From a virus: DNA of 30,987 bases. The position numbers were made by a program, and so were the translations under genes. Location: positions 1 to 30,987 of the IMG/VR virus record IMGVR_UViG_3300012984_000007; one strand, given 5' to 3'. Below the pieces are notes generated by a model, which was given only the letters and a program-made list of their open reading frames with translations, did no database searches and was not told the DNA's origin. Below, one piece after another: positions 2,996 through 30,987 of the stretch (within the stretch, counting starts at the first letter, position 1; every line of letters starts with the position of its first letter).

Positions 2996-3595
2996 ATGGC
3001 TAGTTATGATAATGATCGACTTCAACAACTACAAGCTTCATATCTAGCCTCTAGATCTCAACATGATCTGAATGATCTTTTTAATGCTATGAAAGAAGCG
3101 ACATCAGTTATCTTGAACAGCATGTTGAAGAAGTCAGGTCTCTCATTCAATCAAGAGAGAAGAGAAGAGTTGGTTGAAGATGCATGCTACAGATACTTGT
3201 TCTTACGATTATTGATTAAAGACCCAAAGTACTCTTTGTTAGGGATGGAGCTCAAGTATCAACTTGTTTACTTCCTTCATAACTCTAATCAAAAGAGACG
3301 CGATAAGATCTACTCTCTAGAACAAACATTAGATAATGCACCAGAGACTGAGATCACTTCTGTTTGGAAGTCTAAACAGAAACAAGAAGAAGATCAAGCA
3401 GATTACTTAGAACAACTGTTAACTGATAGTAGGATCAATGGCAAACGAGTGATCTTAACACTGTTAACAGAACGGTACTTTAAGAACGCTTTGAAGAAGT
3501 TAGCTGTGTTCTGCAGTTACACCTTGTTAAGAGACTGGGTGACTAGGATCAAGGTCATCTACGACATGATCCATTATAAAAGAAAGAGAAGATAA
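2996..3595 (+). CDS. Putative sigma-like (region 2-like) phage protein, 199 aa
   Basis: The segment around residues 22-105 reads DLNDLFNAMKEATSVILNSM, then ERREELVEDACYRYLFLRLL, then LKYQLVYFLHNSNQKRRDKI. To me this resembles the helical N-terminal (region 2-like) part of divergent phage sigma-type proteins, in which 'EELVxDAxxRxxxxxLKDP' precedes a basic helix. The C-terminus (residues ~165-199) is strongly basic and ends HYKRKRR. I see no convincing region 4. If the match is right it may redirect host RNA polymerase to phage promoters. Equally it could be a helical packaging accessory. It follows the previous gene by 5 bases and precedes the ribbon-helix-helix-like gene directly. Confidence 0.45.
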   Translation: MASYDNDRLQQLQASYLASRSQHDLNDLFNAMKEATSVILNSMLKKSGLSFNQERREELVEDACYRYLFLRLLIKDPKYSLLGMELKYQLVYFLHNSNQKRRDKIYSLEQTLDNAPETEITSVWKSKQKQEEDQADYLEQLLTDSRINGKRVILTLLTERYFKNALKKLAVFCSYTLLRDWVTRIKVIYDMIHYKRKRR

Positions 3596-10342: not shown

Positions 10343-11731
10343 ATGCCTTACACTGCCAGCCAGATCATCAGAGAGGCTAGATCTCTTTCAGACTTCCAGA
10401 ACGCTGAGACGATCACCTATGAAGATGAGCTCCAACTTATCAATGAAGCTTACCGAGACATCTACAACAGGTACACTGAGTCTGATGGCGATTACTGGGT
10501 CAATGAGGTCATCATCGACCTTGGTTCACAATACCTCGATCCAAACGCTCAAAACGCCTACTTGATTCCGCTCCCTAGTGATTTCTATAAGATCAGATGG
10601 GTTAGCTACAAGAACAACACCATGTGGTCTCCAGTGAACCGATTCTCGACAGCTGACAGAGATGATTGGCCTGGTGTTCCAATGTATCGAATCAAGAATG
10701 ATGACCTATGGATCATCTCTCCACTTGGTTCCATTCCTCAGATCAAGATGGGTTACTACATCCCACCTCAAGTTGTCACAGCACCACAAGACAGCATTCA
10801 GTTTCAACCTGACCTTCCTGCTTACAACGTACCTAACATCAAGAGTGTGTTCTATATCGCCGATGACATCTTGTTGTTTGCCTATGGTTTTATCCTTAAA
10901 GTAGATAATGGAACAGCTAACAACCAAACTATTGATCTCTACACTCACACTAACCCAATCGACAACGTCGTTTATTACAGAGGTTATGCTTACTTCAAAG
11001 ACACTGTGACAAGTGGCATCTATCGACACACAACTGACTTGTCAACTCCCTTTGTTACACCTACTTTGATCTTGAGCAACGTTAACAACTTTGTTATTCA
11101 AAACAATAAGATCATCTACTCAACGGCGGCTATAACTCAGAAGTCAAATCTAGATGGATCTACTCCAGTTCTAGTATCTTCTTCTCCAACCATCAGTTAC
11201 CAATATGCTGAAGCTAAGAACACAGTTCCAGTTTACATCGATGCTAGTTCTTCAACAATCGTTGTTGGTGGAGTTCTATCTAATGTTACTAACGCAGTTA
11301 GATTGACCACTTATCTTGGTCAAGTCTTTTGGCTTGACTCTAATCAAGATTGGTATCAAGCAACTTATGATCCAGTTACTCATGTACTCTCTACTCCTGT
11401 TCTTCGTCAAGAAGGAGTCCTTAAGGTTGGAAACAACGTTGGATCTAACTTCTACCCGGTGGTTGGTGAAGGAGTGTTTGCTAATGACCTCACTGAAGAC
11501 ACCATCTTCGATTATCCCTCCAACGAGGTCAATGAGATCATGACTTACTCATCTGCTTTTGGCTACTCTAGAAAGATCAATGACCTACCTAAGATGCAGT
11601 CTCTTACTTCTGAGATTGTTAACTTGTGGGATAGATTTTGGTCAGTTAATCGCCGAGATGAGTATCAGTTTCAACGAATCAACAACTACTACAAAGACGA
11701 TACTGGTGGTTATGGTTGGGGAGCTTGGTAA
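10343..11731 (+). CDS. Head-tail adaptor with inserted propeller-like domain, 462 aa
   Basis: Residues 1-165 (ASQIIREARSLSDFQNAETI, then YEDELQLINEAYRDIYNRY, ending KMGYYIPPQV) have the pattern of podovirus adaptor proteins that dock under the portal. Residues ~386-462 (PSNEVNEIMTYSSAFGYSRK ... WSVNRRDEYQFQRINNYY) resemble the end of the same family. Between them lie ~220 residues of short beta-strand repeats (LFAYGFILKVD, VVYYRGYAYFKD, VIQNNKIIYS, GQVFWLDSNQDWY), typical of a beta-propeller. Usual adaptors are about 150-250 residues, so this is an insertion. It could decorate the neck or contact the host. The leader carries CTAACTA and AAGGA. The next gene starts at the GTG overlapping its last base region. 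Confidence 0.75.
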   Translation: MPYTASQIIREARSLSDFQNAETITYEDELQLINEAYRDIYNRYTESDGDYWVNEVIIDLGSQYLDPNAQNAYLIPLPSDFYKIRWVSYKNNTMWSPVNRFSTADRDDWPGVPMYRIKNDDLWIISPLGSIPQIKMGYYIPPQVVTAPQDSIQFQPDLPAYNVPNIKSVFYIADDILLFAYGFILKVDNGTANNQTIDLYTHTNPIDNVVYYRGYAYFKDTVTSGIYRHTTDLSTPFVTPTLILSNVNNFVIQNNKIIYSTAAITQKSNLDGSTPVLVSSSPTISYQYAEAKNTVPVYIDASSSTIVVGGVLSNVTNAVRLTTYLGQVFWLDSNQDWYQATYDPVTHVLSTPVLRQEGVLKVGNNVGSNFYPVVGEGVFANDLTEDTIFDYPSNEVNEIMTYSSAFGYSRKINDLPKMQSLTSEIVNLWDRFWSVNRRDEYQFQRINNYYKDDTGGYGWGAW

Positions 11732-14700
11732 GTGCCTAACACACCAGATGCACTAGAGATCAATCTTAAGGCCTCACTCAACGTTGACACAGTTAATGAA
11801 GATGTGTTCTCATTTGGAGATAACACTGCTCCATCTAATGACAACACAGGCATTGAGAGACTAGGTGGTGTTAAGAATCTTTGGGAGACCGAGGTTCTAA
11901 ACCCAACTAATAGCTATGCCTTTGAGACACAAAATGGTCAAACCATGCTCATTGAGCCCACCTCTGACCCTAACATCAACAATCTAGTTGTAGATGGAAA
12001 CTCTGTTGCAAACATCTCTGCTTGGGGTATAGAAAGAAGAGTTAGAATCACCAACGTCGATGACCCTATGGTTTGTGTAGGAGACACCTACATAACATGT
12101 CAGTTGAACGTTAACGTTGTCACAATCTCTGAGTTTGACTTTGACAACAATCTTCTTTCTTCTAGAACAGTTACCTTTACAAACTTACTGCCTTATGTCA
12201 GTTTTATCACAAGCATCAACTTCGTAAGATACCAATCTCCTCATTATGCAGACTCTCAAGAGTTCTTACTCAGATTAGGTGGACAAACTATCATCCTTAA
12301 GGAGTCAACTCCTAACCAACCTATTGTCCCAACCTTCGCTTCTTCTACCATGCTTGGAACAGGAAATGCTATCAACGCTTCTGTTGTTTACAATGGCTTC
12401 TTAGTTGTTGCCGGAGCTAACGGAAGAGTCGCTTCTTTTGATGGTTTTAACTGGAAGAACTATGATGGTTCTGGTTCAGGAACTGGACCTTTCAATGGTG
12501 GTACTGTAGTTAACAACCAAACTATTCAATGTATGATCGTTTGGAATGGCTTCTTAGTCGTTGCAGGAGCTGGTGGTTTACTAGGTTCTTGGGACGGTTC
12601 TGCTTGGAAGAACTATGATGCTTCAGGCATCGGAACTGGACCTTCAGATAATGCAACCTTGATTGGTGCTGTCACCATCTTTGCTATGACCATTTGGTCT
12701 GGTTTCTTAATCGTAGGTGGTGGTTCTGGACGAATGGGATCCATGTCCAATGTCTCCACCAAGTTTGTTTATACGACAACTCAAACGACATTGATGGCTG
12801 GTCGAAACATCCCAGCTCCAACCTCAAATGCTACACTAATCGGATCAAACACGATCACAGCACTTGCTGTTTACACAGCAGTTAATACACCATCTTCACC
12901 AGGCGTATTGATGGTAGCAGGTGGTGGTGGTCTTGTTGCTTCTTGGGATGGTGGTTGGGTCAACAGCTCAGGTACATTATCTCCAGCTACCTCGGCATCA
13001 TCTTGGTCACTTAGAACTCAAGGTGTTACTTCCAGCAACCAAGCAGGTCTATGGGCTTATGGTAATGGTATCTGGCTCTCTGCTATTCAATCTAGCTTAA
13101 ACAACCCAGAGTTCTTAACAAGTACTGATGGTCAGACTTGGACAGGTCGACCCTTAAGTGTTGGTGTTACTTTCCAGTGTATCACTTTCGGTGGTGGTTT
13201 GTTTGTCCTTGCTGGTAACAAGTCCACAGCAGATAATCAAATGGTCTATACCTCACCAGATGGTATCACATGGACCCTTAGAAACACAACTACTACTCCA
13301 ACGTCTAGTGGTTGGGGTTCTGTTGGATATGGTAATGGTCTTTATGTTTTAGGTGCAAGAGATAACACACAAACTACCATCTTAACTTCTCCAGATGCCA
13401 TCACTTGGACCAGCAGATCTACTCCAACTTCTCTTAACTTAGGTTGGTCTGATATCACTTATGGTGCAGGTCTTTATGTTGTCTTAACAAGAGCCGCAGG
13501 TTCTGGTGCAACTAACAACGTTATCACCTCACCAGACGGCATCACATGGACAGCTCGTACCACACCTGTAGCTGCAGGTGGTACTGGTAACGGATGGACT
13601 CACGTTACCTTTGGTAATGGTATCTTTGTTGCTACCTCACTATCTGGATCATCAACTGCTGTTGTTATGACCTCTACTGACGGTATCAACTGGACTGCTA
13701 GAACAGGTATCTCTTCAACTGGTGGTTTAGGAAGACCTGATTATGTCAATGGAATCTGGTGTTCATTTTTCCAAAATGCTACATCAACTAACGCAGTCAT
13801 CACCTCACCAGATGGTATCACTTGGACCACTCAAACTACGCCAGCTCCAGGTGCAGGTGGTTGGACAGGTTTAACAGCAGGAGGAACTGCTGATGGACCA
13901 GGTAGATTCATCGTTGGTTCTAACGGTCAAGGTACTCAGAACTCAATCATTGTCTCTGTTCCATCTACACCTTTCCCAATCTTTAACAACGCAACAGTCA
14001 CCTCTACTTTTACCATCAATGCTATGTACGCAGATAGCTCAATCATCGTGTTCTGTGCAAGCTCTGGTTTACTAGGTAACTACAGCTCTGGTGCCTTCCA
14101 CAACTATAACTCAGGTCTAGCTTTCACCAACAACCAAACTGCTGTTGGAATAAGTGACATCTTATCTATCACTAAGTTCGGAACTACTTGGGTTATAGGC
14201 TCTGGTTCAACAGGTCGATTAGCCTCTTGGGATGGAACAAACTGGAAGAACTATGATGCTACAGGAACAGGTACAGGTGTCTCCAACAATGGTACCATTG
14301 TTGGAGCTTCTAGCATAACAACTCTATCAGTCTACAACTCTCAACTTTGGGCAGGATCAGCTGGTGGAACTGCTAACAACATGTCAAGCTCTGGCTCTTT
14401 TGTTCCACCTTACATCATCCCAGCTGGTGGTTCTGTTGTTTATCTTCTTGGTGGACAATCCATCTTAGGATACCCTTACACCTATCGTTATGAGAACGGA
14501 CTCTACATCCTAGCACTAGTTAACAATGGACTCAACACAGGTTACATCATTGATGAGACCTTGCATCAAGCTACGCCTCTTAAGGTTAGCTATGCTATGC
14601 CACAAATCTCTAATGGAAAGACGCGTCACATCCTCATTGAGACCCCTCGCTTTGATGGTGCTAACTACTACACGGTCTCAACCGTTGGTTACACTGACTT

Positions 14701-16585
14701 CACAACTTTCACAGCAACTCAACAATACCCAACTACAGGGATCACCAATGCCAATGCTATCAAGCAAAGTCACATTGGGTTCAACTACAGTGATTCAACT
14801 CTAACTAGAGGGTCTTCATCAATCACTGAGTTCTTGGTACCTCAGACTCAATCAACTCCAACAAGCTTCTACAGCTTCTTCCAAAGCAACACAAACACCA
14901 CTGTTCTTGGTTTTGGTAAGTTAACTAACAGCTTTGGAGTTGTACCAGATGTTCCATTTGAGATCAGAACCATCTGGACTGGTACTGACTTGGCTGGTGC
15001 TAACCAAGCTACCCTTAGCGTTGCGGTACTTGATGGTAACCCAACAGATGCAATGGGTACTCTTTTGACAAATGTCGGTACATTTGATGACTCTTACACT
15101 CCTCAAGTTAACAGTGGTAGAAGAACTCTTTATAAAGACTCCACTGATGGTTCTTGGTACATCGTTGTTCTATCTAGAACCCCATCAGCACCAATCCAAC
15201 AAGAGAGCACGTATCTTTACAAGATCAACACCATTAGCTTGTTGAACCTTTACAATAGCCAAACTCGCCAAGTAGGAATCGGAAGCTCAGACTGGAATGG
15301 TAGAATGTTATTCACTAGCTCTGCAACTCCAGTAACAGGAACCTCAGAAGCTGTTACTCTTTTCCAAGGTGCCTTCTCAAACGGTATTGATTCTGGTGTC
15401 AAGATCATCGACATCCCAAGTGCAACTTCTGGTAACATCAGTGTTCTAGGTGCACGAGTTCCAGGCTTCAGAAACTCTATCAACAGTCAGTTCTTCGTTA
15501 ATACTTATGTGTCTCCTCCTGCTGTTGCACCGGCCACCATTAACGTTTCTAACCCAGCTTACTTGTTCAGCACTCTAAATGACGGTTCTAAGTTTGTTGT
15601 CTCTAGTCAACAAGGAACCTTCTACACTCAACAGACAAGAGTTCCAATCGCCATTGGAGGGGTTTACTTTCTAGACATCGTTAACTTGACCAATCAAACT
15701 TGGTTGCTTGAGAATGGTTATGAAGGTTACTTGGTAGGTAACAGTTTCATCGGAAGTTACCTAGGCTTCCAGTTGCTAGGTCAAACTTACCTCTTTGATG
15801 GTGAGTGGATCTACATAACTCAACAAGACACCTCAGGGTTCTTTAGTATCCCAACCATCATTGCTCCAGCTTCTGGAATGCAGTACATCGCCTCCGCTGA
15901 AACCTTGGTTTACTTTAGATCTGGTTTTGACAACAGCTTGTACGTCTTCAATGGTGAAAGAAGCCTTCAAAAGAACCAACGATTCACAGCTATGGAACCC
16001 ATCATTGACGGTCAATACTCTGTCAGAGATAAGACTTTAGTTCTTCAAACTGAGAACACCTTGATCTTTGTTAGAGATAACTCAACAGAGAATGGTATCA
16101 TCACCACAAAGAATGACAAGAAGGCAACTCAATCTGGTCTTAGACTTTACAACACAAGTAAAGGACTTATCGTTGGTAATAACACTGGACAGTGGCAGTA
16201 CACCCTTGATTCTCTAGATGATACCTCAACAGTTGTTCCATTGAAGTACAGCACCGCTTACTACGGTTTGACCACTAACAAGAAGAGTTATCTCAAGAGC
16301 TACATCTTGACCTTGTACAGCTCAACTCAACAAGCTCTAACACTTAAGGTCACTCACAATGCCTTTGACCAAGATCATCCTTACGAACAGACCGCATATT
16401 ATAAGGTCTCTCCGTCTGACTATAATGGTCAAGGATACACAAGAGTTAGGCTTCAACCTAAGAGCATGAACAACCTAGCTAACCAACTCACCATTGAGTG
16501 TGATGATGAAGTTCTTCTCTTGAACCTCACAGCTATCTATGAAGAGAAAGAGAACGCAGTCATCAAACCTAAACTAAGCAGATAA
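11732..16585 (+). CDS. Giant tail hub/nozzle protein with nested beta-propellers, 1617 aa
   Basis: It starts with GTG immediately after the adaptor stop, with GGGGAG at 11718-11723 as ribosome binding site. The ends of the protein resemble podovirus nozzle or packaged-DNA stabilisation proteins of the P22 gp10 / T7 gp12 kind. These are the N-terminus GIERLGGVKNLWETEVLNP and the C-terminus LDSLDDTSTVVPLKYSTAYY ... TRVRLQPKSMNNLANQLTIE. Known members are 470-800 residues, so this one is about twice as long. The excess is residues ~200-880. Blades of the type SWDGxxWKNYDxxGxGTGP occur near residues 234, 286, 336, 404, 784 and 832. Six Asp-box repeats (TSPDGITWT) at ~465-700 interrupt them. It forms the tail tip and may bind surface glycans. 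Confidence 0.8.
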   Translation: MPNTPDALEINLKASLNVDTVNEDVFSFGDNTAPSNDNTGIERLGGVKNLWETEVLNPTNSYAFETQNGQTMLIEPTSDPNINNLVVDGNSVANISAWGIERRVRITNVDDPMVCVGDTYITCQLNVNVVTISEFDFDNNLLSSRTVTFTNLLPYVSFITSINFVRYQSPHYADSQEFLLRLGGQTIILKESTPNQPIVPTFASSTMLGTGNAINASVVYNGFLVVAGANGRVASFDGFNWKNYDGSGSGTGPFNGGTVVNNQTIQCMIVWNGFLVVAGAGGLLGSWDGSAWKNYDASGIGTGPSDNATLIGAVTIFAMTIWSGFLIVGGGSGRMGSMSNVSTKFVYTTTQTTLMAGRNIPAPTSNATLIGSNTITALAVYTAVNTPSSPGVLMVAGGGGLVASWDGGWVNSSGTLSPATSASSWSLRTQGVTSSNQAGLWAYGNGIWLSAIQSSLNNPEFLTSTDGQTWTGRPLSVGVTFQCITFGGGLFVLAGNKSTADNQMVYTSPDGITWTLRNTTTTPTSSGWGSVGYGNGLYVLGARDNTQTTILTSPDAITWTSRSTPTSLNLGWSDITYGAGLYVVLTRAAGSGATNNVITSPDGITWTARTTPVAAGGTGNGWTHVTFGNGIFVATSLSGSSTAVVMTSTDGINWTARTGISSTGGLGRPDYVNGIWCSFFQNATSTNAVITSPDGITWTTQTTPAPGAGGWTGLTAGGTADGPGRFIVGSNGQGTQNSIIVSVPSTPFPIFNNATVTSTFTINAMYADSSIIVFCASSGLLGNYSSGAFHNYNSGLAFTNNQTAVGISDILSITKFGTTWVIGSGSTGRLASWDGTNWKNYDATGTGTGVSNNGTIVGASSITTLSVYNSQLWAGSAGGTANNMSSSGSFVPPYIIPAGGSVVYLLGGQSILGYPYTYRYENGLYILALVNNGLNTGYIIDETLHQATPLKVSYAMPQISNGKTRHILIETPRFDGANYYTVSTVGYTDFTTFTATQQYPTTGITNANAIKQSHIGFNYSDSTLTRGSSSITEFLVPQTQSTPTSFYSFFQSNTNTTVLGFGKLTNSFGVVPDVPFEIRTIWTGTDLAGANQATLSVAVLDGNPTDAMGTLLTNVGTFDDSYTPQVNSGRRTLYKDSTDGSWYIVVLSRTPSAPIQQESTYLYKINTISLLNLYNSQTRQVGIGSSDWNGRMLFTSSATPVTGTSEAVTLFQGAFSNGIDSGVKIIDIPSATSGNISVLGARVPGFRNSINSQFFVNTYVSPPAVAPATINVSNPAYLFSTLNDGSKFVVSSQQGTFYTQQTRVPIAIGGVYFLDIVNLTNQTWLLENGYEGYLVGNSFIGSYLGFQLLGQTYLFDGEWIYITQQDTSGFFSIPTIIAPASGMQYIASAETLVYFRSGFDNSLYVFNGERSLQKNQRFTAMEPIIDGQYSVRDKTLVLQTENTLIFVRDNSTENGIITTKNDKKATQSGLRLYNTSKGLIVGNNTGQWQYTLDSLDDTSTVVPLKYSTAYYGLTTNKKSYLKSYILTLYSSTQQALTLKVTHNAFDQDHPYEQTAYYKVSPSDYNGQGYTRVRLQPKSMNNLANQLTIECDDEVLLLNLTAIYEEKENAVIKPKLSR
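13121..13840 (+). repeat. Six coding Asp-box repeats inside the nozzle gene
   Basis: A coding motif, T-S-[PT]-D-[GA]-x-[TN]-W-T, recurs near 13124, 13252, 13386, 13527, 13671 and 13803, spaced 43-48 codons. It is preserved partly at DNA level (CACCAGATGGTATCAC variants). This is the BNR/Asp-box pattern of sialidase-like six-bladed propellers. The repeats diverge at synonymous positions, so they are old protein repeats rather than recent DNA duplications. Confidence 0.85.
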
Positions 16586-16598
16586 GGAAACTACAACT

Positions 16599-17672
16599 AT
16601 GGCAGGATTACTAGATAACATCGGACAGTTCATCTCAGGTTCTCACACTAATGAAGGTGTTGAAGCTGAGAAGGATCTTGGAAAGACTGGAGAACAGGTC
16701 GTTCAACAGGGCCAAGGTCTCATTGGACAAGGTACCAATCAACTTCAGAAACAAACTAACACAGCTAACAAACTCGCTGGCTCAGAGAATGAAGCCTATC
16801 AGGAGTCTGTTGGTGCAAACGCTGGTGATACCCTTAAGAAAGGAATCGCTGCATCAGAACCCATCGCTCAACAAGCTGCAGAAGAACAAGCTTCAGGTGT
16901 AGCTAAGACTCAACTAGAAGCTTCAAGGACTGCTGGGTTAAACAAAGGTGAAGCTGCACTTCATGCTGGTCAAGCTGGTGGAAATGCTTACACCTCTACT
17001 TATGCTCCAGCTCTTCAGAATGAACAGAGTCAATACAACACCCTAGCACTTCAAAGAGGACAACAGGCACTTCAAGAACAAGGTCTTGGATTGACTGGTG
17101 CCGGTAAGATCGCTGAGACTGGTGTGTCTGAACTTAACCCAGGTCTTGGTGCACAATCAACTGCTGCTCAAGCTCAGATTGATCAAGGCAATAGAGAACA
17201 AGCTGCTGGAGGTGGTCTATTAGGTGGTGCTATTTCAGGCATCTCAAGTCTACTCTCTGACGTAAGACTCAAGACCAACATCACTCCATCTGGTTCAGTT
17301 GAAGATCTCATGACAAAGTTCAAGTCTCCTAAGACAGTTTCTAATGTCGATGTACTTCTAGCTAAGTACAAAGATAGTTCAGACCCAATCAAGAAGCTTG
17401 CAGCTAATGTCACCCCAGTTGATTTCAACTATAAACCTGGGATTGGTGAAGATCCTAACAAACAAAGAGTTGGAGTTCTTGCACAAGATCTTGAGAAGAC
17501 CGATGCTAAGGACAATGTTGTTGTAGCACCTGATGGAACTAAGACCATCGATGTTCCACAACAGACTGGAACCAACACCAACTGGATCGTTCAACTTGCA
17601 CAGAAATCTGTTGAACAAGAAAGCATGATCAAGGACCTACAGGCTCAACTCTCGAAACTTCAAGGGAAGTAA
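16599..17672 (+). CDS. Ejection-type protein with C-terminal S74 autochaperone domain, 357 aa
   Basis: Residues 1-215 are Gln/Ala/Gly-rich and helical (GNAYTSTYAPALQNEQSQYN), like small podovirus internal or ejection proteins. From residue 220 the sequence SDVRLKTNI opens an S74 intramolecular chaperone domain, followed by DFNYKPG, RVGVLAQDLEKTD and NWIVQLAQKSVEQESMIKDL (the usual C-terminal helix). In S74 proteins, cleavage falls between Ser and Asp, helped by a Lys five residues on. Here S220, D221 and K225 fit exactly, so self-release of ~137 residues is predicted. S74 domains normally end trimeric fibres or spikes, and this N-terminus does not look like a fibre. Ribosome binding site AAGGAA. 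Confidence 0.8.
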   Translation: MAGLLDNIGQFISGSHTNEGVEAEKDLGKTGEQVVQQGQGLIGQGTNQLQKQTNTANKLAGSENEAYQESVGANAGDTLKKGIAASEPIAQQAAEEQASGVAKTQLEASRTAGLNKGEAALHAGQAGGNAYTSTYAPALQNEQSQYNTLALQRGQQALQEQGLGLTGAGKIAETGVSELNPGLGAQSTAAQAQIDQGNREQAAGGGLLGGAISGISSLLSDVRLKTNITPSGSVEDLMTKFKSPKTVSNVDVLLAKYKDSSDPIKKLAANVTPVDFNYKPGIGEDPNKQRVGVLAQDLEKTDAKDNVVVAPDGTKTIDVPQQTGTNTNWIVQLAQKSVEQESMIKDLQAQLSKLQGK

Positions 17673-17738: not shown

Positions 17739-18752
17739 ATGGCTCAGACTCCACAGACTTCATCCCCAACTTCTTCTTATGGTTCTGTTAAACCAGTTGC
17801 TGCAGCTGTTCAACAAACTGACTTCAACCCTTTCATGTCTGCTGATGATAAACTAAAGCAAGCTGCTTTAGCTGCTTCATCTCCTAAGCCAGTTCCTGGG
17901 TCCGATGCAGATTCTCAATCTTCACTCACAGCTCTTCAAGCTCCTCCTACCGCTGGAGGTACTTACGGTTATGGTACAGGATTGAATCGAACCACGTTAG
18001 ATCCCAATGCTCCAAAGATCCAGAACTTCCCAAGCTTTGCCGAGTGGCAACAGGCCTTGAGAAACTATCAAGCTGGGATGGCGGCTTCCGCTGGTGCCTT
18101 CAGAGGACCTCCTGTGGCTACTCCTCCTGTCGTGGTAGCTGCAAAGCCATCTCCTGCCCCAAGTGTAACCAAAACCGCACCATTAACGATTGAGACAAAA
18201 CCGATCCAAGAGGTCAACACCAAAGGTCCAGAACCGATCATCACTCAGACAGAGTCTCCAACTGAGACACCTCAGGGACCAGAACTACCTCCTTCACCAC
18301 AAGATCCTTCCTTTTGGGACAAGATCGGAAAGATCGCTAAGGACACAGGAAAGGGCATCACAGATGTTCTAGGAACTGCTCTTGCTGGTTACAACGCAGG
18401 ACTGACTGGTAAAACACTTGATTTTAACACCACAGTTCAAGGTATGGAGAAGCAACAAGCTAACCAAGAGAAGCAACAGGCTTCTAGTTATCTTCAACAG
18501 TTTAAGGTTCTTGATGCTCAACAATCCTTTCAAAACAAACAAGCTCAACTTGATAGAGATCATGACACTGCTATTCAGAACGCCAAGACTCAAGAAGAGA
18601 AAGATGCTGCCAACAAAGCTTATGCTCAACAGTCTAAGGAGAATGCTTTGAATAGAGAGAATGCTATTCAACAAACTCTCATCTCTGCTGGTAAGACTCA
18701 AAACGTTCTACCTAACTCTGGAACCAAACAAGATCCGGCAGGCATTAGATAA
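17739..18752 (+). CDS. Putative internal virion/ejection protein, 337 aa
   Basis: Residues ~1-190 are low-complexity, rich in Pro, Ser, Thr and Ala (PPVVVAAKPSPAPSVTKTAP), hence probably disordered. Residues ~195-225 contain a Gly/Lys helix (FWDKIGKIAKDTGKGITDVL), possibly amphipathic. Residues ~235-325 are a long Gln-rich charged helix (KQQANQEKQQASSYLQQFKV ... KAYAQQSKENALNRENAIQQ). Such an extended, helical protein after the nozzle gene fits the ejection proteins that leave the podovirus head with the DNA. No exact family recognised. The leader has CTAACTA and AAGGAA. Its stop overlaps the next start (TAATG). Confidence 0.6.
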   Translation: MAQTPQTSSPTSSYGSVKPVAAAVQQTDFNPFMSADDKLKQAALAASSPKPVPGSDADSQSSLTALQAPPTAGGTYGYGTGLNRTTLDPNAPKIQNFPSFAEWQQALRNYQAGMAASAGAFRGPPVATPPVVVAAKPSPAPSVTKTAPLTIETKPIQEVNTKGPEPIITQTESPTETPQGPELPPSPQDPSFWDKIGKIAKDTGKGITDVLGTALAGYNAGLTGKTLDFNTTVQGMEKQQANQEKQQASSYLQQFKVLDAQQSFQNKQAQLDRDHDTAIQNAKTQEEKDAANKAYAQQSKENALNRENAIQQTLISAGKTQNVLPNSGTKQDPAGIR

Positions 18753-21086: not shown

Positions 21087-21458
21087 ATGAATGATCTCAC
21101 ACAACAAGCTACTACTCCAGTTGATGCTAGTGCATTGAAGAACAGACTCTTGTCTGTGTTCACTGCTTCTAAACCAAAGCCAACTCAAGCTGAACTTGCA
21201 CCTCCTTCAAAACCTGTTGCAACACCACCTCCTACTGTTAATGCTAACACCATGGGAAACGTCCAAGCTTTAGTTTGGAAAGATGGTAAAGCTCCACCTC
21301 CACCTGAGAACCCAGATGCACCTGGTGCACAATCTACTCTACCTAATCCTGGTGATACTCCAGGCACTCCTCCAGTTAAGTCTCCTAATCTCAACACTCT
21401 TGAGAACAAAGGAACTGCTGGAACCTTGGTGAACCCTAAAGGATGGGCTGGTCTTTAA
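21087..21458 (+). CDS. Proline-rich hypothetical protein, 123 aa
   Basis: The start lies one base after the previous stop. Apart from a short helix (DASALKNRLLSVFTASKPKP) it is low-complexity with Pro/Thr/Ala tracts (KPVATPPPTVNANT, APPPPENPDAPGAQ). It shares this style with the N-termini of the two preceding genes. It is probably disordered, perhaps a linker, accessory ejection or anchoring protein. Function unknown. Its stop codon overlaps the ATG I favour for the fibre gene. Confidence 0.6.
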   Translation: MNDLTQQATTPVDASALKNRLLSVFTASKPKPTQAELAPPSKPVATPPPTVNANTMGNVQALVWKDGKAPPPPENPDAPGAQSTLPNPGDTPGTPPVKSPNLNTLENKGTAGTLVNPKGWAGL

Positions 21459-22348
21459 TGGCAGGAGCTAGTCTAAAATATCCATCTACTTCTCTTGTTG
21501 CCAGTGCTGACAACTTAACTTCTACTTCAGTCAATAAAAGTGTTCTAGATCTTTTGAAGAAGCTTAATGAAACCAACACTAGAATAGATGATCTTTCTCC
21601 TGGAACAACTACAGGTATCTATGACTCTGGAACAACTAGTTCAGGAAACTGGATTCGTTATGTTGATGGTACCATGACATGTTGGGGTTCTATTACTGCT
21701 ACAAGTAAAGGAACCCCTGGTCAGTTTACAACTCTACTCCACTTTAATGTAGCAACAATAGCTTTTCCTCAAGTCTTCTTAACTCTTCCTACTGTAACTT
21801 CCAGCATCTTACAACCTTTTGGTAATGCTAATGATGCAGTAGGGGGATCAATCACCAACTTAACTACATCAGGATGTAACATCGGAGGGTACATTGGTGT
21901 TGATGCTTTCCAAACCTTAACTTGGATAGCTATGGGAAGATGGGCGAATGCCACTCAAGGTTCTCCAAACACTTACAATGTTGTTGGAAACACAGCAGTT
22001 GCAATCACTTGTAGATCAGGTCCTTTAACAGCTACTGTTAACGTTCCTATCCCTCTTGCCATTCTATCTCAAACAGGAAAAGGAACTTATAGTAGTGGAA
22101 CTTTTACTGTAGCAGTTGCTGGTACATATCTAATGAACATTCATGGAAGCAACTCAAGTAGTGGTGCTAACTCTTTTTGGACCTTTATCAATGGCGTAAA
22201 AACAAAACAGGTTGCATCATTCCCAGCTATAGGTTACTCAGTCTCTGGAGTAGAACTTGTTTATGCAAATGTTGGAGACACCTTAGCATTCATTTGTGAT
22301 GCAACACAAAACTTAGATAACTTAGGATCTGGTTTCAGTTTAATCTAA
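21458..22348 (+). CDS. Tail fibre / receptor-binding protein with C1q-like tip, 296 aa
   Basis: The N-terminal part has a short coiled coil (SVLDLLKKLNETNTRIDDLS), typical of trimeric fibres. It is followed by SSGNWIRYVDGTMTCWGSIT, a motif seen in the terminal domains of many phage fibres (G-x-W-I-R-x-x-D-G-T-M-x-C-W-G). The last ~125 residues (TATVNVPIPLAILSQTGKGT ... GTYLMNIHGSN ... VGDTLAFICD) match the jelly-roll pattern of C1q/TNF-like tips. It probably binds the host surface. I chose ATG 21458 because it overlaps the previous stop. An in-frame ATG at 21443 would add five residues. Confidence 0.8.
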   Translation: MAGASLKYPSTSLVASADNLTSTSVNKSVLDLLKKLNETNTRIDDLSPGTTTGIYDSGTTSSGNWIRYVDGTMTCWGSITATSKGTPGQFTTLLHFNVATIAFPQVFLTLPTVTSSILQPFGNANDAVGGSITNLTTSGCNIGGYIGVDAFQTLTWIAMGRWANATQGSPNTYNVVGNTAVAITCRSGPLTATVNVPIPLAILSQTGKGTYSSGTFTVAVAGTYLMNIHGSNSSSGANSFWTFINGVKTKQVASFPAIGYSVSGVELVYANVGDTLAFICDATQNLDNLGSGFSLI

Positions 22349-22683: not shown

Positions 22684-23061
22684 ATGAACGAGGAACATCA
22701 ATATATAAAGGAGATTCTGGAGACAAAGTTCGATGCATTTGCTGAGTTGTTAAAGTCAGAGCTCGGACATCTTAAGGAAGAGGTCAAGAAGATTGAACTT
22801 AACCTTGAGACTCATAGGTCTACTAGTGATGAGGAAACTGTGAAGATGGAACAATCTATTGTTCGAATCCATCTCAGGATCGACAGCTTAGAAGAGCGTC
22901 TCAAGAAAGCAGAAACACCAGCTAAACCAAATAGGTTAGAGCAGATCAAGACGGCAGCTATTAGTTGGGCCGTTCCAATCTTGATGATCTCAATAGTTTG
23001 GTTGATTGGTTCAGGCACCATTGAGAAGTTCATTGATTTCATACTTCACTTGAACAAATAA
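22684..23061 (+). CDS. Coiled-coil protein with C-terminal membrane segment, 125 aa
   Basis: Residues 1-80 form a heptad-rich, highly charged coiled coil (FAELLKSELGHLKEEVKKIE ... RIDSLEERLKKAE). After a short basic linker (KPNRLEQIKTA) comes one hydrophobic span, about residues 95-110 (ISWAVPILMISIVWLIGSG). This tail-anchored topology is like XhlA-type holin partners and some phage membrane-anchoring factors. It is the only clear membrane protein in the rightward late region besides the 37-aa one, so a lysis role is possible. Ribosome binding site AAGGAA, about 12 bases before the ATG. Confidence 0.7.
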   Translation: MNEEHQYIKEILETKFDAFAELLKSELGHLKEEVKKIELNLETHRSTSDEETVKMEQSIVRIHLRIDSLEERLKKAETPAKPNRLEQIKTAAISWAVPILMISIVWLIGSGTIEKFIDFILHLNK

Positions 23062-24246: not shown

Positions 24247-24615
24247 TTTACTATGGTGATCATGAAGCTGTCTAATCACGAATCTTAACATTGTTAAGTC
24301 CTTGATTCTTTGATTGATCTGTTTCCTAACATCTCCAGATAATCTCTTAACTATCTTGGTCAAGTAAGTGATGTCCATCTTAAATCTGTTGTAGCAGACA
24401 ACCAAGAGGTCTAGACCTGTTTGTCTGTCCGTTCCTGTCTCCAACCACTTGATTAGTTTAGCGAAACTGTCTGTCTCAGGTATGATCGCTATCTGGTCAT
24501 CCATGGTGGACCCTCCGTCTACAGCTGTCATCTTCCCTTTGAAAGATATGACCTTTGATCTCGAGCGAACCGGTGACCACCACCAAGCCTTTAACGCGTG
24601 TAATATATCAGGCAT
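24244..24615 (-). CDS. Hypothetical leftward protein, 123 aa
   Basis: Not recognised. It starts with an aromatic/basic stretch (HALKAWWWSPVRSRSKVISF), has an acidic loop (DGGSTMDDQIAIIPETD) and a helical C-terminal half (DITYLTKIVKRLSGDVRKQI) ending LHDHHSK. There is no clear membrane segment. The leader is excellent: on the minus strand CTGCCACTAACTATAATACA, then AAAAGGAGAAAGG before the ATG. Its first codons contain a copy of the CGTGTAATATAT palindrome (24597-24609). It is the last gene of the leftward arm and reads into the bidirectional terminator. Confidence 0.7.
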   Translation of the reverse strand: MPDILHALKAWWWSPVRSRSKVISFKGKMTAVDGGSTMDDQIAIIPETDSFAKLIKWLETGTDRQTGLDLLVVCYNRFKMDITYLTKIVKRLSGDVRKQINQRIKDLTMLRFVIRQLHDHHSK

Positions 24616-25491: not shown

Positions 25492-25567
25492 CTTTGCGGC
25501 CCTCCTGTTCAACGAGCATCTAGTCTTCCATACGGAAGGCATTTTGTTTTGCTCATCTGATAGTTCC

Positions 25568-25595
25568 ATTATACACCGAACAAAAAGTTTGTACA
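25568..25595 (-). promoter_or_regulatory. Leftward sigma-70-type promoter
   Basis: On the minus strand, TGTACA (25595-25590), a 16-base spacer and TATAAT (25573-25568), followed by GG. The same TGTACA/TATAAT arrangement occurs at 27518-27546. It drives the gene at 25219 through a ~70-base leader. Confidence 0.7.
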
Positions 25596-25614
25596 CTACT
25601 TTTGAAACTTTTTT

Positions 25615-25649
25615 CAAAAAAAGAAAAGGCCTAGGAATAACCCTAGGCC
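25615..25649 (-). terminator. Leftward terminator
   Basis: On the minus strand, GGCCTAGG-GTTATT-CCTAGGCC (plus 25628-25649) is followed by TTTTCTTTTTTTG. It is a strong intrinsic terminator for the gene at 25660-26016, directly upstream of the next promoter. Confidence 0.93.
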
Positions 25650-25659
25650 CTACAACGAC

Positions 25660-26016
25660 TTAGCTCTTGGTGATCTCGTCGATCTTGATCTTCAGTTGAT
25701 CGATCTGGTTGTCTGTCTCAACCACAAGCCTCTCAAGTGACTGATAATCGGTCTCAATCATCTTGACTGTGGTCTTGTGGTTGTGATTCATCCACTCATA
25801 GGTAAAAACTCCTATGGCGATCCAGATTCCCAGGGCTCCAACGAGTGATAGGTTAGGATTGGCAGCTGCCATGAAGACATTGAAGATAGCAGCAGGAACC
25901 AGACCAATGGAGATCGAGGTCATCAAGGTCTTGGATTTGGATTGTTTCTCCAACCTCTTGATCTCGATCTTCAACTCCGTCAAACGTTTCGATCCTTCGT
26001 GAATAAAGACTCCCAT
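25660..26016 (-). CDS. Two-membrane-segment protein, holin-like, 118 aa
   Basis: Start chosen at the ATG complementary to 26014-26016 because GTAGGAGGTGAAC stands directly before it. An in-frame GTG two codons earlier is inside that site. The product has a charged N-terminal helix (SKRLTELKIEIKRLEKQSKS), two hydrophobic spans (about residues 34-52, SISIGLVPAAIFNVFMAAA, and 57-75, LSLVGALGIWIAIGVFTYE) and a C-terminal coiled coil (DYQSLERLVVETDNQIDQLK). Two spans with both ends cytoplasmic is the class II holin layout, but length and coiled coils also fit superinfection-exclusion or envelope-tethering proteins. It is last in a cluster of envelope-directed proteins. Confidence 0.7.
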   Translation of the reverse strand: MGVFIHEGSKRLTELKIEIKRLEKQSKSKTLMTSISIGLVPAAIFNVFMAAANPNLSLVGALGIWIAIGVFTYEWMNHNHKTTVKMIETDYQSLERLVVETDNQIDQLKIKIDEITKS

Positions 26017-26034
26017 GTTCACCTCCTACAAACT

Positions 26035-26056
26035 CTCCCTGTCGTACGACAGGGAG
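26035..26056. other. Perfect 22-base palindrome upstream of the holin-like gene
   Basis: CTCCCTGTCGT and its exact complement meet without a loop at 26045/26046. The site lies between the stop at 26071 and the ribosome binding site at 26022-26028, so as RNA it would form a hairpin just before translation starts. No T-run follows on the minus strand. Operator, attenuator or RNA-processing site. Confidence 0.55.
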
Positions 26057-26070
26057 TTATTTCTGTTGTC

Positions 26071-26355
26071 TTACTTGTGGTGAGAAACGGCAGCGTAGGC
26101 AATCGCAGAGCCAGCGATGATGGCCACGCTTGTAGAGATGGAGCTGAAGAGGAACAAGCCAATCGCTTGGCGATAAGCAGTGTCCCTCTCCTCGATGGTC
26201 TTCTTGAGCTCAGCCCTGAGATCAGCTTCAACCTTAGTATCGGTCTGAGTCTGAGTGGTCTGAGTATCGGCTGGTGGAGGAATAACTTCCCCTTCAGCGA
26301 AGATCGTGGTAGACAGCGTGAGAGCCATCAAAGTAGTAGCAATGAACCTTTTCAT
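26071..26355 (-). CDS. Secreted/membrane protein with signal peptide and C-terminal membrane segment, 94 aa
   Basis: Start set at the ATG complementary to 26353-26355, after CTAACTACATG and AAAAGGAGAA on the minus strand. An in-frame TTG six bases earlier is less likely. Residues 1-20 (MKRFIATTLMALTLSTTIFA) are a signal peptide with a likely cut after A20. Then comes a Pro/Thr/Gln linker (PPPADTQTTQTQTD), a charged helix (VEADLRAELKKTIEERDTAY) and a hydrophobic span (~residues 63-88, AIGLFLFSSISTSVAIIAGS). An exported helix with a C-terminal anchor is not a standard spanin or holin. Its neighbours (a lipoprotein and a two-span protein) suggest an envelope-disrupting or exclusion module. Confidence 0.7.
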   Translation of the reverse strand: MKRFIATTLMALTLSTTIFAEGEVIPPPADTQTTQTQTDTKVEADLRAELKKTIEERDTAYRQAIGLFLFSSISTSVAIIAGSAIAYAAVSHHK

Positions 26356-26407
26356 AAACAAGTTCTCCTTTTCATGTAGTTAGTTACTATATCTCAGAAA
26401 GGTTGAA

Positions 26408-26426
26408 TGATGGAAAACTTCCATCA
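26408..26426. other. Small hairpin between lipoprotein and secreted-protein genes
   Basis: TGATGGAA and TTCCATCA form an 8-bp stem with a 3-base loop. No good T-run follows on the minus strand, so only weak termination or mRNA protection is expected. Confidence 0.45.
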
Positions 26427-26915
26427 TCAATAGTAGAAACCATTACCATCAGGCCTCCACAAACCATCCGAGTATTGACTCAAGTCAAAGATGGATAGAG
26501 TGTGAGTAGGGTCTTGATAGGTACTAGTCCAAACTACCTTAGAACCAACCTTCTGAATGACCTGTGTGCTGTACACAACAGGTAAAACCGGACAAGGTAC
26601 GTTGACGTCTTGAACTGGGTAACTGTTGCTGTTGAATAAGTAGTGAAAGATCACCTCGCCATTGTCATTCAAAACTCTCCAATCCACAGTTGTGTTCGAT
26701 GGTGGTGGAGGAAGAACGACCACGTGAAGTTGTACCGTAGGGCCTGAGTAAGGCGTAGGTGTAGGACTAGGTGAAGGATCAGGATCACCAGCTTTCGTAG
26801 AAGGTGTTGAAGTAGGTGTAGGAAGTCCAACACTAACGATTCCACTAGTGTTCGTCGTTGGTGAATCGCAGGCCACCATCAACAGTGACAACAGTATCAA
26901 GACCATGTATCTCAT
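26427..26915 (-). CDS. Predicted lipoprotein, 162 aa
   Basis: The N-terminus (MRYMVLILLSLLMVAC) is a lipoprotein signal with a near-lipobox LMVA|C17, so the mature protein would start with acylated Cys followed by Asp. In Escherichia coli, Asp after Cys favours inner-membrane retention, but host rules may differ. Residues ~30-60 are a Pro/Ser/Thr linker (PTPTSTPSTKAGDPDPSPSP), then comes a beta-rich domain (TVQLHVVVLPPPPSNTTVDW ... VVYSTQVIQKVGSKVVW) with no catalytic motif. The proline-rich lipoprotein resembles outer-membrane spanins, though it is long for that. Superinfection exclusion is an alternative. AAAAGGAGAG precedes the ATG. Confidence 0.75.
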   Translation of the reverse strand: MRYMVLILLSLLMVACDSPTTNTSGIVSVGLPTPTSTPSTKAGDPDPSPSPTPTPYSGPTVQLHVVVLPPPPSNTTVDWRVLNDNGEVIFHYLFNSNSYPVQDVNVPCPVLPVVYSTQVIQKVGSKVVWTSTYQDPTHTLSIFDLSQYSDGLWRPDGNGFYY

Positions 26916-27058: not shown

Positions 27059-27499
27059 TTAGATGAACCACCAACCCAAGGACATCCTCGTCCTTTGATC
27101 GATGAGCTGCTGCATGACGCGTCGTTTCTGATACGACACTGGAACCTGTCCCTTGTAGAGACGTTGGCTCACAACCTCGTAAAGATCGTCAGCATGAGTG
27201 TCTAACAGCTTGTAGTTTTGATTGGACTCTTCATACTGTCCGATGATGAAGATCACCAACTCCGGAAGAGTGGTGTAAACTCTAGAGTACCTCCTAGGAG
27301 CCTTGGTCTTGGGAAGCTCCAACCTGTTTTGGATGAACCAATAATGGTTCAGAAACTCCTTCGTATGGTCTGGAGCAAACACGAAGGCTCCAACCTCAGG
27401 TCTTGCCAACGACAAGCCCATGTACGTGTGCGATCTGATGTTCCCCTTGAACTCAAGATCGTCATCTGTGGTCAGATGAACCTTTCTGAACTGATGCAT
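27059..27499 (-). CDS. Hypothetical protein, 146 aa
   Basis: Not recognised. The product is globular and aromatic-rich (HTYMGLSLARPEVGAFVFAP, TKEFLNHYWFIQNRLELP) with a basic, helical C-terminus (SQRLYKGQVPVSYQKRRVMQ ... RTRMSLGWWFI). There is no membrane segment or signal peptide. GGAGGTGCAAGA precedes the ATG on the minus strand, with a perfect promoter ~20 bases further up, so its mRNA has a very short leader. It probably starts the transcription unit that continues into the lipoprotein and membrane genes. Codon choice is somewhat GC-richer than in the NUMOD genes upstream. Confidence 0.72.
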   Translation of the reverse strand: MHQFRKVHLTTDDDLEFKGNIRSHTYMGLSLARPEVGAFVFAPDHTKEFLNHYWFIQNRLELPKTKAPRRYSRVYTTLPELVIFIIGQYEESNQNYKLLDTHADDLYEVVSQRLYKGQVPVSYQKRRVMQQLIDQRTRMSLGWWFI

Positions 27500-27517
27500 T
27501 CTTGCACCTCCAGGTCC

Positions 27518-27546
27518 ATTATATCACAAGATTCAAAAGATGTACA
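27518..27546 (-). promoter_or_regulatory. Leftward sigma-70-type promoter with extended -10
   Basis: On the minus strand, TGTACA (27546-27541), a 17-base spacer and TATAAT (27523-27518), preceded by TGA (extended -10) and followed by GG. It directs the gene at 27059-27499. Confidence 0.8.
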
Positions 27547-27621
27547 CAACAAAAGAAAGATGAAGAAAGTTCCGTCTTACTACCATTAACTTTACACTGT
27601 TAAGATTCGTGAACTGGCAAA

Positions 27622-27646
27622 TAAAAAAGGCTGCCTAAGGGCAGCC
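27622..27646 (-). terminator. Leftward terminator
   Basis: On the minus strand, GGCTGCC-CTTA-GGCAGCC is followed by TTTTTTATTTG. A clear intrinsic terminator ending the unit with the gene at 27666, ~75 bases before the next promoter. Confidence 0.95.
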
Positions 27647-27665
27647 CGTTTCAATCTATTTATAT

Positions 27666-27869
27666 TTACTTCTTAACTTTACTGACCGAGGTACTGAAGT
27701 GGTTCTTGATATGGGTGACCACTCCATCTTGAGTCAAGGTCAATCGGTCTGAAGGATACCACTTCCTCATATGATCAAGGGCTTCCTTCAACTTGTCAAA
27801 CTCAAACTCTTTAACATCATGGCCTGAACAAGTCCGTCCCTTTACAATCATCTTGACCTTAGTTTTCAT
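27666..27869 (-). CDS. Small basic protein, 67 aa
   Basis: Start chosen at the ATG complementary to 27867-27869, seven bases after AAGGAG on the minus strand. Longer in-frame versions lack a ribosome binding site and would run through the promoter at 27889. The product (MKTKVKMIVKGRTCSGHDVK, helix DKLKEALDHMRKWYPSDRLT, then LTQDGVVTHIKNHF) reads as a beta-alpha-beta domain rich in Lys, His and Arg. No family recognised. It follows the NUMOD3 gene and has its own possible promoter. Confidence 0.7.
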   Translation of the reverse strand: MKTKVKMIVKGRTCSGHDVKEFEFDKLKEALDHMRKWYPSDRLTLTQDGVVTHIKNHFSTSVSKVKK

Positions 27870-27888
27870 CTTCAATCTCCTTGAGTAC

Positions 27889-27917
27889 AATGTACCATAC
27901 ATACGTAAACGTGTACA
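27889..27917 (-). promoter_or_regulatory. Possible third TGTACA promoter
   Basis: On the minus strand, TGTACA (27917-27912), a 17-base spacer, then TACATT (27894-27889), a weaker -10. The TGTACA and spacing match the other two leftward promoters. It would serve the 67-aa gene. Confidence 0.45.
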
Positions 27918-27934
27918 CAGGAAGATGAAACATT

Positions 27935-29032
27935 TTACAATCGAGTCCAATGGTAACCTCCAACCTCTTTGTTGTTATCAATAGCATATCTCATCGTGTT
28001 GCTCTTGAATGAAATGGAGACTGTAGGATCCAAGTTTAAGCTGTCGTAAGCTATGACCATGGACTTGAAGATCTCACCTGTTTCGACGCATTGAACAGGT
28101 TTAGAGTTTCCTAAGTTATTTGGGTTTGGACCTCTAAGTTTGATCTCTCTATTCATCGTAGGTTGTAGATCTTTCTTCTTAGCATTCGTAGCCTTTCTCG
28201 TAGCAGAGATCTTAGACCTTGTCTCAGGAGATAACCTTCTATTTCTGTTGGCTTCACTGATCTTCTCTCTCATCTCAGGTGTCCAAACTTGTTTAGGTCT
28301 TGGCTTAGAGACCTTCTGTTGAGACATCAACAACTCACCTCTAATCTTTCGTTCTTTTTTAACTGACTCTTCTCGTTCAGCGAAGGCATCATCTAGAACA
28401 TGATTAGATGCAGGAGCTTTGATATCTTTGTTGATCCAATGATCTTTCTTAGCTCTAGCTTCTTCTTCAGTTAAGGCCCAGAAGATGTCCTCATAAGGAC
28501 GTTTGTTTAAGTAGATCCCTCTCTTAGTTCTATCATTAACATTGAACGAGTCATCAAAGGTGACTTGAAGTTCATCAGAGTCTAGAGAAACTCCAAACAA
28601 CTTTCTACTCTTGTCTAGAGTCTTGATCAATCTAGTGATCTTAGTTCCTATGATGTTGTCAATGTCTCTTGGAAATCTCTTAACAAAGTTATGGCCACTC
28701 GTCTTCATGATATAACCTGAAGAGTAGATCCTTCCATATTTCTCTTCTATATCATCAATATGAGAGAAGACCTCCCAAGTGACGGTCTCCATGTACACGA
28801 TCCTTGGGTACTCAAAGTCTTCTAACTCAGCTAGCTCTTCATAAGTTAAGGTCTTCTTCTTAAGTTCATGAAGATCCTTTCTTTTCAACCAATCTATCTT
28901 ATCTTGTCTTGTCACCAATAGACTATGAAAGTAGAACTCATACTCAGGAGATGGATGCCTTCGTCTTTCTGGTTCAGGTCCATAGTCATCATCTAAGATG
29001 TCAATGAGGCGGAGTTCAAAGTCTGAGATCAT
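27935..29032 (-). CDS. NUMOD3 / IENR1-like DNA-binding protein, 365 aa
   Basis: Residues ~249-282 (VWTPEMREKISEANRNRRLS, then PETRSKISATRKA) are two NUMOD3-type repeats, a DNA-binding motif known from homing endonucleases. Residues ~311-365 (PVQCVETGEIFKSMVIAYDS ... GGYHWTRL) match a NUMOD1/IENR1-like winged module. The N-terminal ~240 residues are charged, helical and unrecognised, with no HNH, GIY-YIG or LAGLIDADG nuclease signature. Hence it is probably not an active homing endonuclease but a sequence-specific DNA-binding protein, or one with an unfamiliar catalytic domain. It is the third gene of the first leftward operon. GGAG and TAACTATA precede the ATG. Confidence 0.75.
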   Translation of the reverse strand: MISDFELRLIDILDDDYGPEPERRRHPSPEYEFYFHSLLVTRQDKIDWLKRKDLHELKKKTLTYEELAELEDFEYPRIVYMETVTWEVFSHIDDIEEKYGRIYSSGYIMKTSGHNFVKRFPRDIDNIIGTKITRLIKTLDKSRKLFGVSLDSDELQVTFDDSFNVNDRTKRGIYLNKRPYEDIFWALTEEEARAKKDHWINKDIKAPASNHVLDDAFAEREESVKKERKIRGELLMSQQKVSKPRPKQVWTPEMREKISEANRNRRLSPETRSKISATRKATNAKKKDLQPTMNREIKLRGPNPNNLGNSKPVQCVETGEIFKSMVIAYDSLNLDPTVSISFKSNTMRYAIDNNKEVGGYHWTRL

Positions 29033-30190: not shown

Positions 30191-30339
30191 ATAAGACAGT
30201 GTTCAAAGAAACTCAAAGATACTATAACATTTTAGTTGATCTGAGTCTTGTTATGTACTCGCTTAAAAAAGACAGTTGTAGTAATCATATTATCTTACTA
30301 TTATTATAGTTCTTAGTGCTTAATACAACTGTCCTTTTT
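30191..30339. repeat. Inverted and direct operator-like repeats in control region
   Basis: AAAAAAGACAGTTGTA (30265-30280) and TACAACTGTCCTTTTT (30324-30339) are inverted copies matching at 15 of 16 positions, 43 bases apart. A shorter copy, AAGACAGT, is at 30193-30200. The left arm covers the -35 box and the right arm lies just past the expected start of the rightward promoter, a layout suited to repression by looping or to an origin. Confidence 0.65.
30276..30304 (+). promoter_or_regulatory. Main rightward promoter candidate
   Basis: TTGTAG (30276-30281), a 17-base AT-rich spacer and TATTAT (30299-30304) predict a start near 30311 and a ~105-base leader before the gene at 30416. The whole gap 30119-30415 holds no long gene. 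It is AT-rich and divergent, and is the best origin or switch candidate in the genome. A weaker leftward candidate is TATAGT, complement of 30221-30226, with a poor -35. Confidence 0.6.
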
Positions 30340-30350
30340 AGGAAGCTAAG

Positions 30351-30864: not shown

Positions 30865-30987
30865 CGGACCTATTAGAACTTCCTCTACTAACTGATAAGG
30901 AGAAGACGGCCATGACACAGACCGAGCTAACACAAAGGATCCTTGATAACACGATTGATTACTTGAAAAGAGCTCCTAGTAACACAC
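30865..30987. repeat. Direct terminal repeat, right copy
   Basis: Identical to 1-123. Removing one copy joins the gene at 30416-30826 to the gene at 48 with an 85-base gap and gives a continuous rightward operon. Confidence 0.95.
30912..30987 (+). CDS. Partial duplicate of the gene at 48-383
   Basis: The first 25 codons of the 111-aa gene, repeated because the window overlaps itself. It is cut by the window end and is not a separate gene. Confidence 0.9.
   Translation, partial: MTQTELTQRILDNTIDYLKRAPSNT

Follow-up and report, generated by a model that had tools for sequence, protein, structure and literature searches.

What is a small phage doing with three consecutive leftward genes for a lipoprotein, a secreted protein with a C-terminal membrane segment and a holin-like protein? 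The locus (positions 26915-25660) lies in IMG/VR record IMGVR_UViG_3300012984_000007, analysed here over its full length of 30,987 nucleotides (the window). An original prediction had offered two answers, a new lysis module or a superinfection-exclusion system on the inner and outer membranes. On the evidence below we place a non-canonical two-component spanin with a holin-like protein first, as a tentative reading, and an exclusion operon close behind it.

The phage and its genome

The record represents a whole virus whose first and last 123 bases are identical:

1-123 (left copy) and 30865-30987 (right copy), no strand: direct terminal repeat, exact 123-bp identity

Because of this exact repeat the genome is probably complete or circular, at 30,864 bp. 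The rightward structural genes encode a terminase large subunit (TerL, 4001-5797), a portal (6160-8139), an SU10-type adaptor (10343-11731), a Peptidase_S74 protein (16599-17672) and a tail-fibre-like protein (21443-22348), while the leftward gene block spans 30118-24244. All 36 listed genes were compared with PHROGs (seven of them only at E ≤ 0.001) and 30 of the 36 with Pfam. Family matches were obtained for 10 genes, eight in PHROGs at E ≤ 0.001 and two more over the Pfam cut-off, and three of the eight PHROG matches (18752, 24704 and 25219) are weak and may reflect composition. The other 26, the presumed major capsid protein among them, matched no family at these levels, and the same scans of the 36 genes of this probably complete genome recognised no DNA polymerase, primase or helicase.

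The virus is a small, unclassified tailed phage without close relatives. TerL had no match in phage records at an E limit of 1e-5; with the limit at 10 the best match was Thermus phage Riverbug (E 2e-6, 24.6% identity), and an alignment of TerL with four named phages led to at least 66 viral contigs with segments 21-31% identical. The capsid, portal, adaptor and a 777-aa virion protein gave nothing useful in the phage-record or viral-contig collections tried for each, and tblastn of all 36 genes against 70 loci matched only TerL at E ≤ 0.01. Likewise, the three proteins of the locus had no significant relative in PHROGs, Pfam, NCBIfam, PADLOC, phage records or viral contigs. In genome contigs TerL found nothing useful, and the 94-aa secreted protein had a single match (L073), which was dropped as it covers the signal peptide only (residues 1-22). 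The contig search relied on exact 8-residue words, so that distant relatives would escape it. Thus, the search for the same trio in related phages, proposed with the original prediction, found neither the trio nor close relatives of the core proteins, and consequently yields no conservation evidence.

A hint of a Gram-negative host comes from the lipoprotein and from a 58-aa protein (2446-2622) assigned to phrog_2423 (1.3e-18). The latter has matches in 402 phage records, of which 288 are named Pseudomonas and most of the remainder have Gram-negative hosts.

A compact leftward unit

The three genes are the second to fourth of a compact four-gene leftward unit (27499-25660) with promoter-like and terminator-like signals of its own. 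The first gene of this unit, the promoter and the terminal repeat had all been missed by the original prediction. The features of the unit, in the direction of transcription, are the following (z, folding relative to shuffles):

27628-27647, minus strand: intrinsic terminator ending the upstream leftward unit, 8-pair stem and T run (region z -3.44)
27515-27547, minus strand: promoter-like P1, GTGTACA-N17-TATAATGGA, near-consensus sigma70-type with extended -10 (TG), 10/12 consensus
27059-27499, minus strand: first gene, 146 aa, no hydrophobic segment
27031-27051, minus strand: 7-bp intercistronic hairpin in region 27062-26916 (z 0.10, not special)
26427-26915, minus strand: lipoprotein, 162 aa, with lipobox Cys16, Asp at +2, Pro/Thr-rich linker and one further Cys (Cys108)
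26403-26430, minus strand: intercistronic hairpin overlapping the lipoprotein stop codon (region 26430-26362, z -2.14)
26071-26355, minus strand: protein with signal peptide and C-terminal anchor, 94 aa from the likelier start ATG 26355, predicted type I (N-out, C-in)
26035-26056, minus strand: perfect 22-nt palindromic hairpin between the third and fourth genes (region 26074-26017, z -3.66)
25660-26016, minus strand: probable two-span, holin-like protein, 118 aa from the likelier start ATG 26016, predicted N-in/C-in with a cytoplasmic coiled-coil tail
25626-25651, minus strand: intrinsic terminator ending the unit after the last gene, 11-pair stem and T run (region z -4.81)
25565-25596, minus strand: promoter-like P2, of the same type as P1, preceding the next leftward genes

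Promoter-like sites are no more frequent than chance predicts (13 against 17.0 expected between 22000 and 30987); the case for P1 and P2 is one of site quality and of location between terminators and genes. Among 30 listed promoter-like sites only these two carry an exact TATAAT, and five reach a score of 10/12. The pattern common to P1 and P2 was built from the two sites themselves, which makes its zero-chance figure post hoc.

A near-palindrome, CTTAACANTGTTAAG, occurs with at most two mismatches at four sites, one directly upstream of P1 (27590-27604) and three intragenic (3454-3468, 24284-24298 and 28679-28693). Allowing three mismatches gives seven sites against 2.2 expected, a number reached in 0 of 100 shuffles, and the element is a possible operator.

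All three genes of the trio stand as originally placed, each preceded by a Shine-Dalgarno sequence and each scoring best in its own frame for codon use. The in-frame scores are 0.26 for the 94-aa protein (at most -0.14 in the other five frames), 0.18 for the 118-aa protein (at most -0.05) and 0.09 for the lipoprotein (at most -0.00 elsewhere, a slim margin over one antisense frame). These values are below most of those of the reference, 13 long training genes that score themselves at 0.14-0.66. The first gene of the unit, for which family-library searches found no relatives, scores -0.015 in frame, yet this is the highest of its six frames. Hairpins between the genes, which had been suggested to tune expression, are borne out for two of the three intercistronic regions; the region upstream of the lipoprotein gene does not fold better than its shuffles. 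None of these hairpins is among the listed leftward-strand terminators, and they are therefore more likely to be RNA-processing or stabilising elements.

The locus is a real and well-bounded envelope operon. A chance origin of its cluster of membrane proteins is only moderately unlikely: with four of the 36 genes counted as membrane-bearing, three in a row have a probability of 0.018. The figure becomes 0.045 if a 1617-aa ORF (11732-16585) is included, which passes the energy threshold but is judged a virion protein, and 0.31 at the loosest membrane threshold, where nine genes are counted.

The three envelope proteins

The predicted lipobox of the first protein (LMVA|C) passes a PROSITE-like pattern and fails the strict form [LVI][ASTVI][GAS]C through Met at -3. 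The Pro-rich linker of the original prediction is present, as a Pro/Thr-rich stretch. The mature lipoprotein has 147 residues, with Cys108, 63% of the way along from the lipid anchor, as the sole Cys besides the lipidated one. Its C-terminal part is possibly beta-rich; an AF2 model placed strands there at low confidence only (pLDDT 41) and was discarded as useless. The best and sole PHROG match at E ≤ 1 is to phrog_812 (Rz-like spanin), at E 0.019 and over residues 1-38, that is, signal peptide and linker. A six-frame scan of the genome found this to be the only lipobox ORF preceded by a Shine-Dalgarno sequence, and two additional ones appeared when that filter was removed, both antisense to gene 1027-1692. 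In lambda, T7 and T1 the lipobox rule recovered each of the five known lipoproteins among the 11 ORFs that it found; two of the five (Bor and T7 18.7) lack the Shine-Dalgarno mark, and the filter thus loses real lipoproteins.

The 94-aa protein has a cleavable-type signal peptide (residues 1-20), a 45-residue stalk and a C-terminal hydrophobic segment (66-90), in agreement with the secreted, C-terminally anchored protein originally described, albeit with a borderline energy for the segment (1.03). The predicted topology is type I. The stalk carries no heptad signal (p 0.66). Weak library matches below cut-off, for example to CwsA (E 0.092), NetB (E 0.005) and SAVED_peptidaseM48 in PADLOC (E 0.022), were not taken as relatives.

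For the 118-aa protein, the second hydrophobic segment is good (energy -0.15). The first is weak by energy (2.17; hydropathy 1.69), and for this reason the two-span architecture originally described, along with the predicted N-in/C-in topology, is probable rather than certain. The N-terminal tail is basic (8 K/R against 4 D/E), and the C-terminal tail has a strong heptad pattern, reached by 0 of 2000 shuffles. AF2 gave two long helices (2-52 and 58-117) with a best pLDDT of 69.8 (five models, 41.7-69.8), and a Foldseek search with this model returned nothing at E ≤ 0.001. No holin family was matched in PHROGs, Pfam or NCBIfam. The sole match in phage records, to a tape-measure protein (E 0.5), was rejected. 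The probable two spans with a short loop and the predicted topology, if they hold, would be those of class II holins, as which the T7 gene 17.5 product is annotated; the 118-aa length with a coiled-coil tail and the absence of an adjoining endolysin or a family match set it apart from them.

Lysis, exclusion or separate functions

In the reading that we tentatively prefer, the unit would deliver three proteins into the host envelope for lysis. The lipoprotein and the adjoining 94-aa protein would together bridge the periplasm as a two-component spanin-like complex, in which the latter, a type I protein, would take the inner-membrane position usually held by a type II one; the pair would then resemble a unimolecular spanin divided into two chains. 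The 118-aa protein would serve as a holin-like protein of class II or regulate a holin. This reading leads because the lipoprotein is the only Shine-Dalgarno-preceded one found in the genome, because no canonical type II gene was found near it, and because its neighbour has the reverse topology named by Kongari et al. 2018 (PMC6139136). In that survey 586 of 677 Gram-negative phage genomes have a spanin system; of the 91 (about 13%) in which none is recognisable, 31 have a lipoprotein without a linked i-spanin. Its authors suggest that i-spanins might also be type I proteins with a C-terminal anchor, or lipoproteins of the inner membrane, both of which their search criteria left out (PMC6139136).

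In line with the original prediction, the scans showed no canonical spanin pair and no holin with a family match. The six-frame scan revealed no intact type II i-spanin gene in its vicinity; five ORFs of 42-63 aa with an N-terminal transmembrane segment (6596-6724, 7901-8035, 18068-18244, 18369-18521 and 27793-27984) all overlap other genes, and none is within 1.2 kb of the lipoprotein gene on the same strand. A comparison of 71 sources (823 kb, the window among them) yielded six lipobox ORFs, and that of the window alone has a type I neighbour on its own strand within 1.2 kb; the cleavage-site rule used was tuned to accept the 94-aa protein, and most of the sources are partial contigs selected for distant similarity of their TerL. 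Of the other five ORFs, one (L065) has type II neighbours and one (L051) a two-span neighbour; the only further type I call was made in L023, antisense to the lipobox ORF of that source. No report of a type I i-spanin was found in the literature searched, which included passages of PMC6139136, PMC7692668 and PMC9239132. If the pair works as a spanin, it would offer a concrete and testable type I example together with a rule for finding others.

The pair resembles two-component spanins such as lambda Rz/Rz1 and T4 PseT.3/PseT.2 in that a lipoprotein with a Pro-rich stretch adjoins a single-anchor inner-membrane protein. The summed periplasmic length (147 + 45 = 192 residues) lies inside the surveyed range of 62-300, and the position of the lone Cys also agrees with the survey, being on the side expected from the one-Cys cases (PMC6139136). 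At least one periplasmic Cys is present in 507 of 528 surveyed pairs, here Cys108, and beta character is commoner in separated o-spanins (PMC6139136). Unlike in these systems, the partner is of type I, with a signal peptide and a C-terminal anchor; the lipoprotein gene comes first, its product has Asp at +2 and a large C-terminal part, and phrog_812 (see above) was the only, non-significant, spanin-family match by sequence or profile. By the strict definition the pair is outside the two-component spanin family, since its partner is not type II, although it may still work like a spanin. If the two proteins join, the product would have a lipid anchor at one end and a C-terminal transmembrane anchor at the other, as in the unimolecular spanin T1 gp11. 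Here, however, these two elements are divided over two genes, and the lipoprotein has an extra Cys, whereas none of 58 surveyed u-spanins has a periplasmic one (PMC6139136).

Several features argue against a spanin. Typical late lysis genes differ from this unit, which is read against the direction of the structural genes and from a host-type promoter; the lipoprotein gene precedes that of the putative partner; the membrane segment of the 94-aa protein is borderline and the first span of the 118-aa protein weak; another membrane gene (22684-23061, see below) has a position more usual for lysis; no relatives were found for the three proteins, and fold searches gave nothing at E ≤ 0.001. Moreover, in enterics Asp at +2 holds a lipoprotein in the inner membrane, though the source that describes this doubts the rule and finds the signal rarer elsewhere (PMC6469965), and such retention would misplace an o-spanin. 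No endolysin was recognised in the unit or elsewhere by family scans of the 36 genes. The original prediction had also reported none, and the observation stands for these scans; it carries little weight, because 26 of the genes match no family. The only matched family with endolysin in its name, phrog_342, matches the 777-aa protein over a 152-residue stretch (E 7e-6) that was taken as low-complexity, and Pfam finds no lysin domain in it.

Next in rank, and somewhat unlikely in our estimate, is an exclusion or conversion-type operon in which the lipoprotein and the two membrane proteins, made early from the host-type promoter, would block adsorption or DNA entry. The lipoprotein would be kept in the inner membrane by Asp +2 or would face an outer-membrane receptor. 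A lysis-type reading gains detail from the operon boundaries and from the pairing of a lipoprotein with a type I protein; exclusion is favoured by the +2 Asp (PMC6469965), the separate leftward unit and the near-consensus sigma70-type P1. T1 Cor (annotated as superinfection exclusion) and lambda Bor, neither of them a spanin, are likewise lipobox proteins encoded on the strand opposite the adjoining structural or lysis genes. For two phage lipoproteins that can block receptors, T5 Llp and Rtp45, the exclusion mechanism has been solved (PMC9586334, PMC12685063), and T5 Llp, T1 Cor and Rtp45 share with the present protein a location in a unit away from recognised lysis genes. However, Llp, of 61 residues, and Rtp45, of about 6 kDa, are small proteins, and like the Cor family they contain an intramolecular disulphide (PMC9586334, PMC12685063). 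In its mature form the present lipoprotein is 147 residues long, with a single Cys apart from the one that is lipidated. The known cases are also described as lone lipoproteins rather than as part of a trio, there is no sequence match to them, and PADLOC matched neither the lipoprotein nor the 118-aa protein, its hit to the 94-aa protein being that at E 0.022 noted above. Should exclusion be correct, the operon would be a multi-gene system unlike the small lipoproteins with solved structures (PMC9586334, PMC12685063).

Slightly less favoured, and again unlikely, is that the genes do not form a single module. They would then be part of a unit for early host takeover in which each product has a task of its own, for instance in cell division, transport or membrane potential, and the true lysis genes would lie elsewhere. 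With 26 of 36 genes outside any family, an unrecognised endolysin or holin is quite possible, the unit opens with a gene lacking a membrane segment, and the clustering is only moderately unlikely under looser thresholds (0.045 to 0.31); the three consecutive envelope proteins, at a chance of 0.018 under the preferred threshold, speak against it. A conventional lysis cassette elsewhere, which would have undercut the original prediction, was sought and none was recognised. The search turned up one gene only, a candidate for an alternative holin or accessory protein, in a place, after the tail-fibre gene, that is common for lysis genes:

22684-23061, plus strand: coiled-coil protein with a C-terminal membrane segment, 125 aa, after the tail-fibre-like gene

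Far less probable is that the operon is the whole lysis system of an endolysin-less phage, combining a reverse-topology spanin, a coiled-coil holin and a soluble product of the first gene, which would jointly disrupt the envelope, for instance through a block of wall synthesis rather than digestion of the wall. About as improbable is a kinship of the 118-aa protein with accessory membrane proteins (Mu releasin DUF2730, SLATT pore-forming effectors) instead of holins. The DUF2730 profile scored 16.4 bits (E 0.01, cut-off 24.9) and SLATT_5 16.1 bits (E 0.0059, cut-off 60), and neither identity was accepted at scores so far under the curated cut-offs. The DUF2730 match (66-117) extends over part of the second span and the cytoplasmic coil, in an out-to-in orientation like that of Mu gp25, although DUF2730 proteins have a single N-terminal transmembrane segment and, among active phages, occur in transposable ones only (PMC9239132). 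SLATT_5 also appeared at E ≤ 1 in nine of 14 control genomes, in no case over the cut-off, in a control search in which the window was without it.

Elsewhere in the genome, the leftward block contains a homing-endonuclease-like ORF (27935-29032; phrog_314, E 4.6e-9, with NUMOD3 below cut-off). In the AT-rich region between the divergent gene blocks lies a 24-nt inverted repeat (30264-30287 / 30317-30340, 88% complementary), a possible origin or control site.
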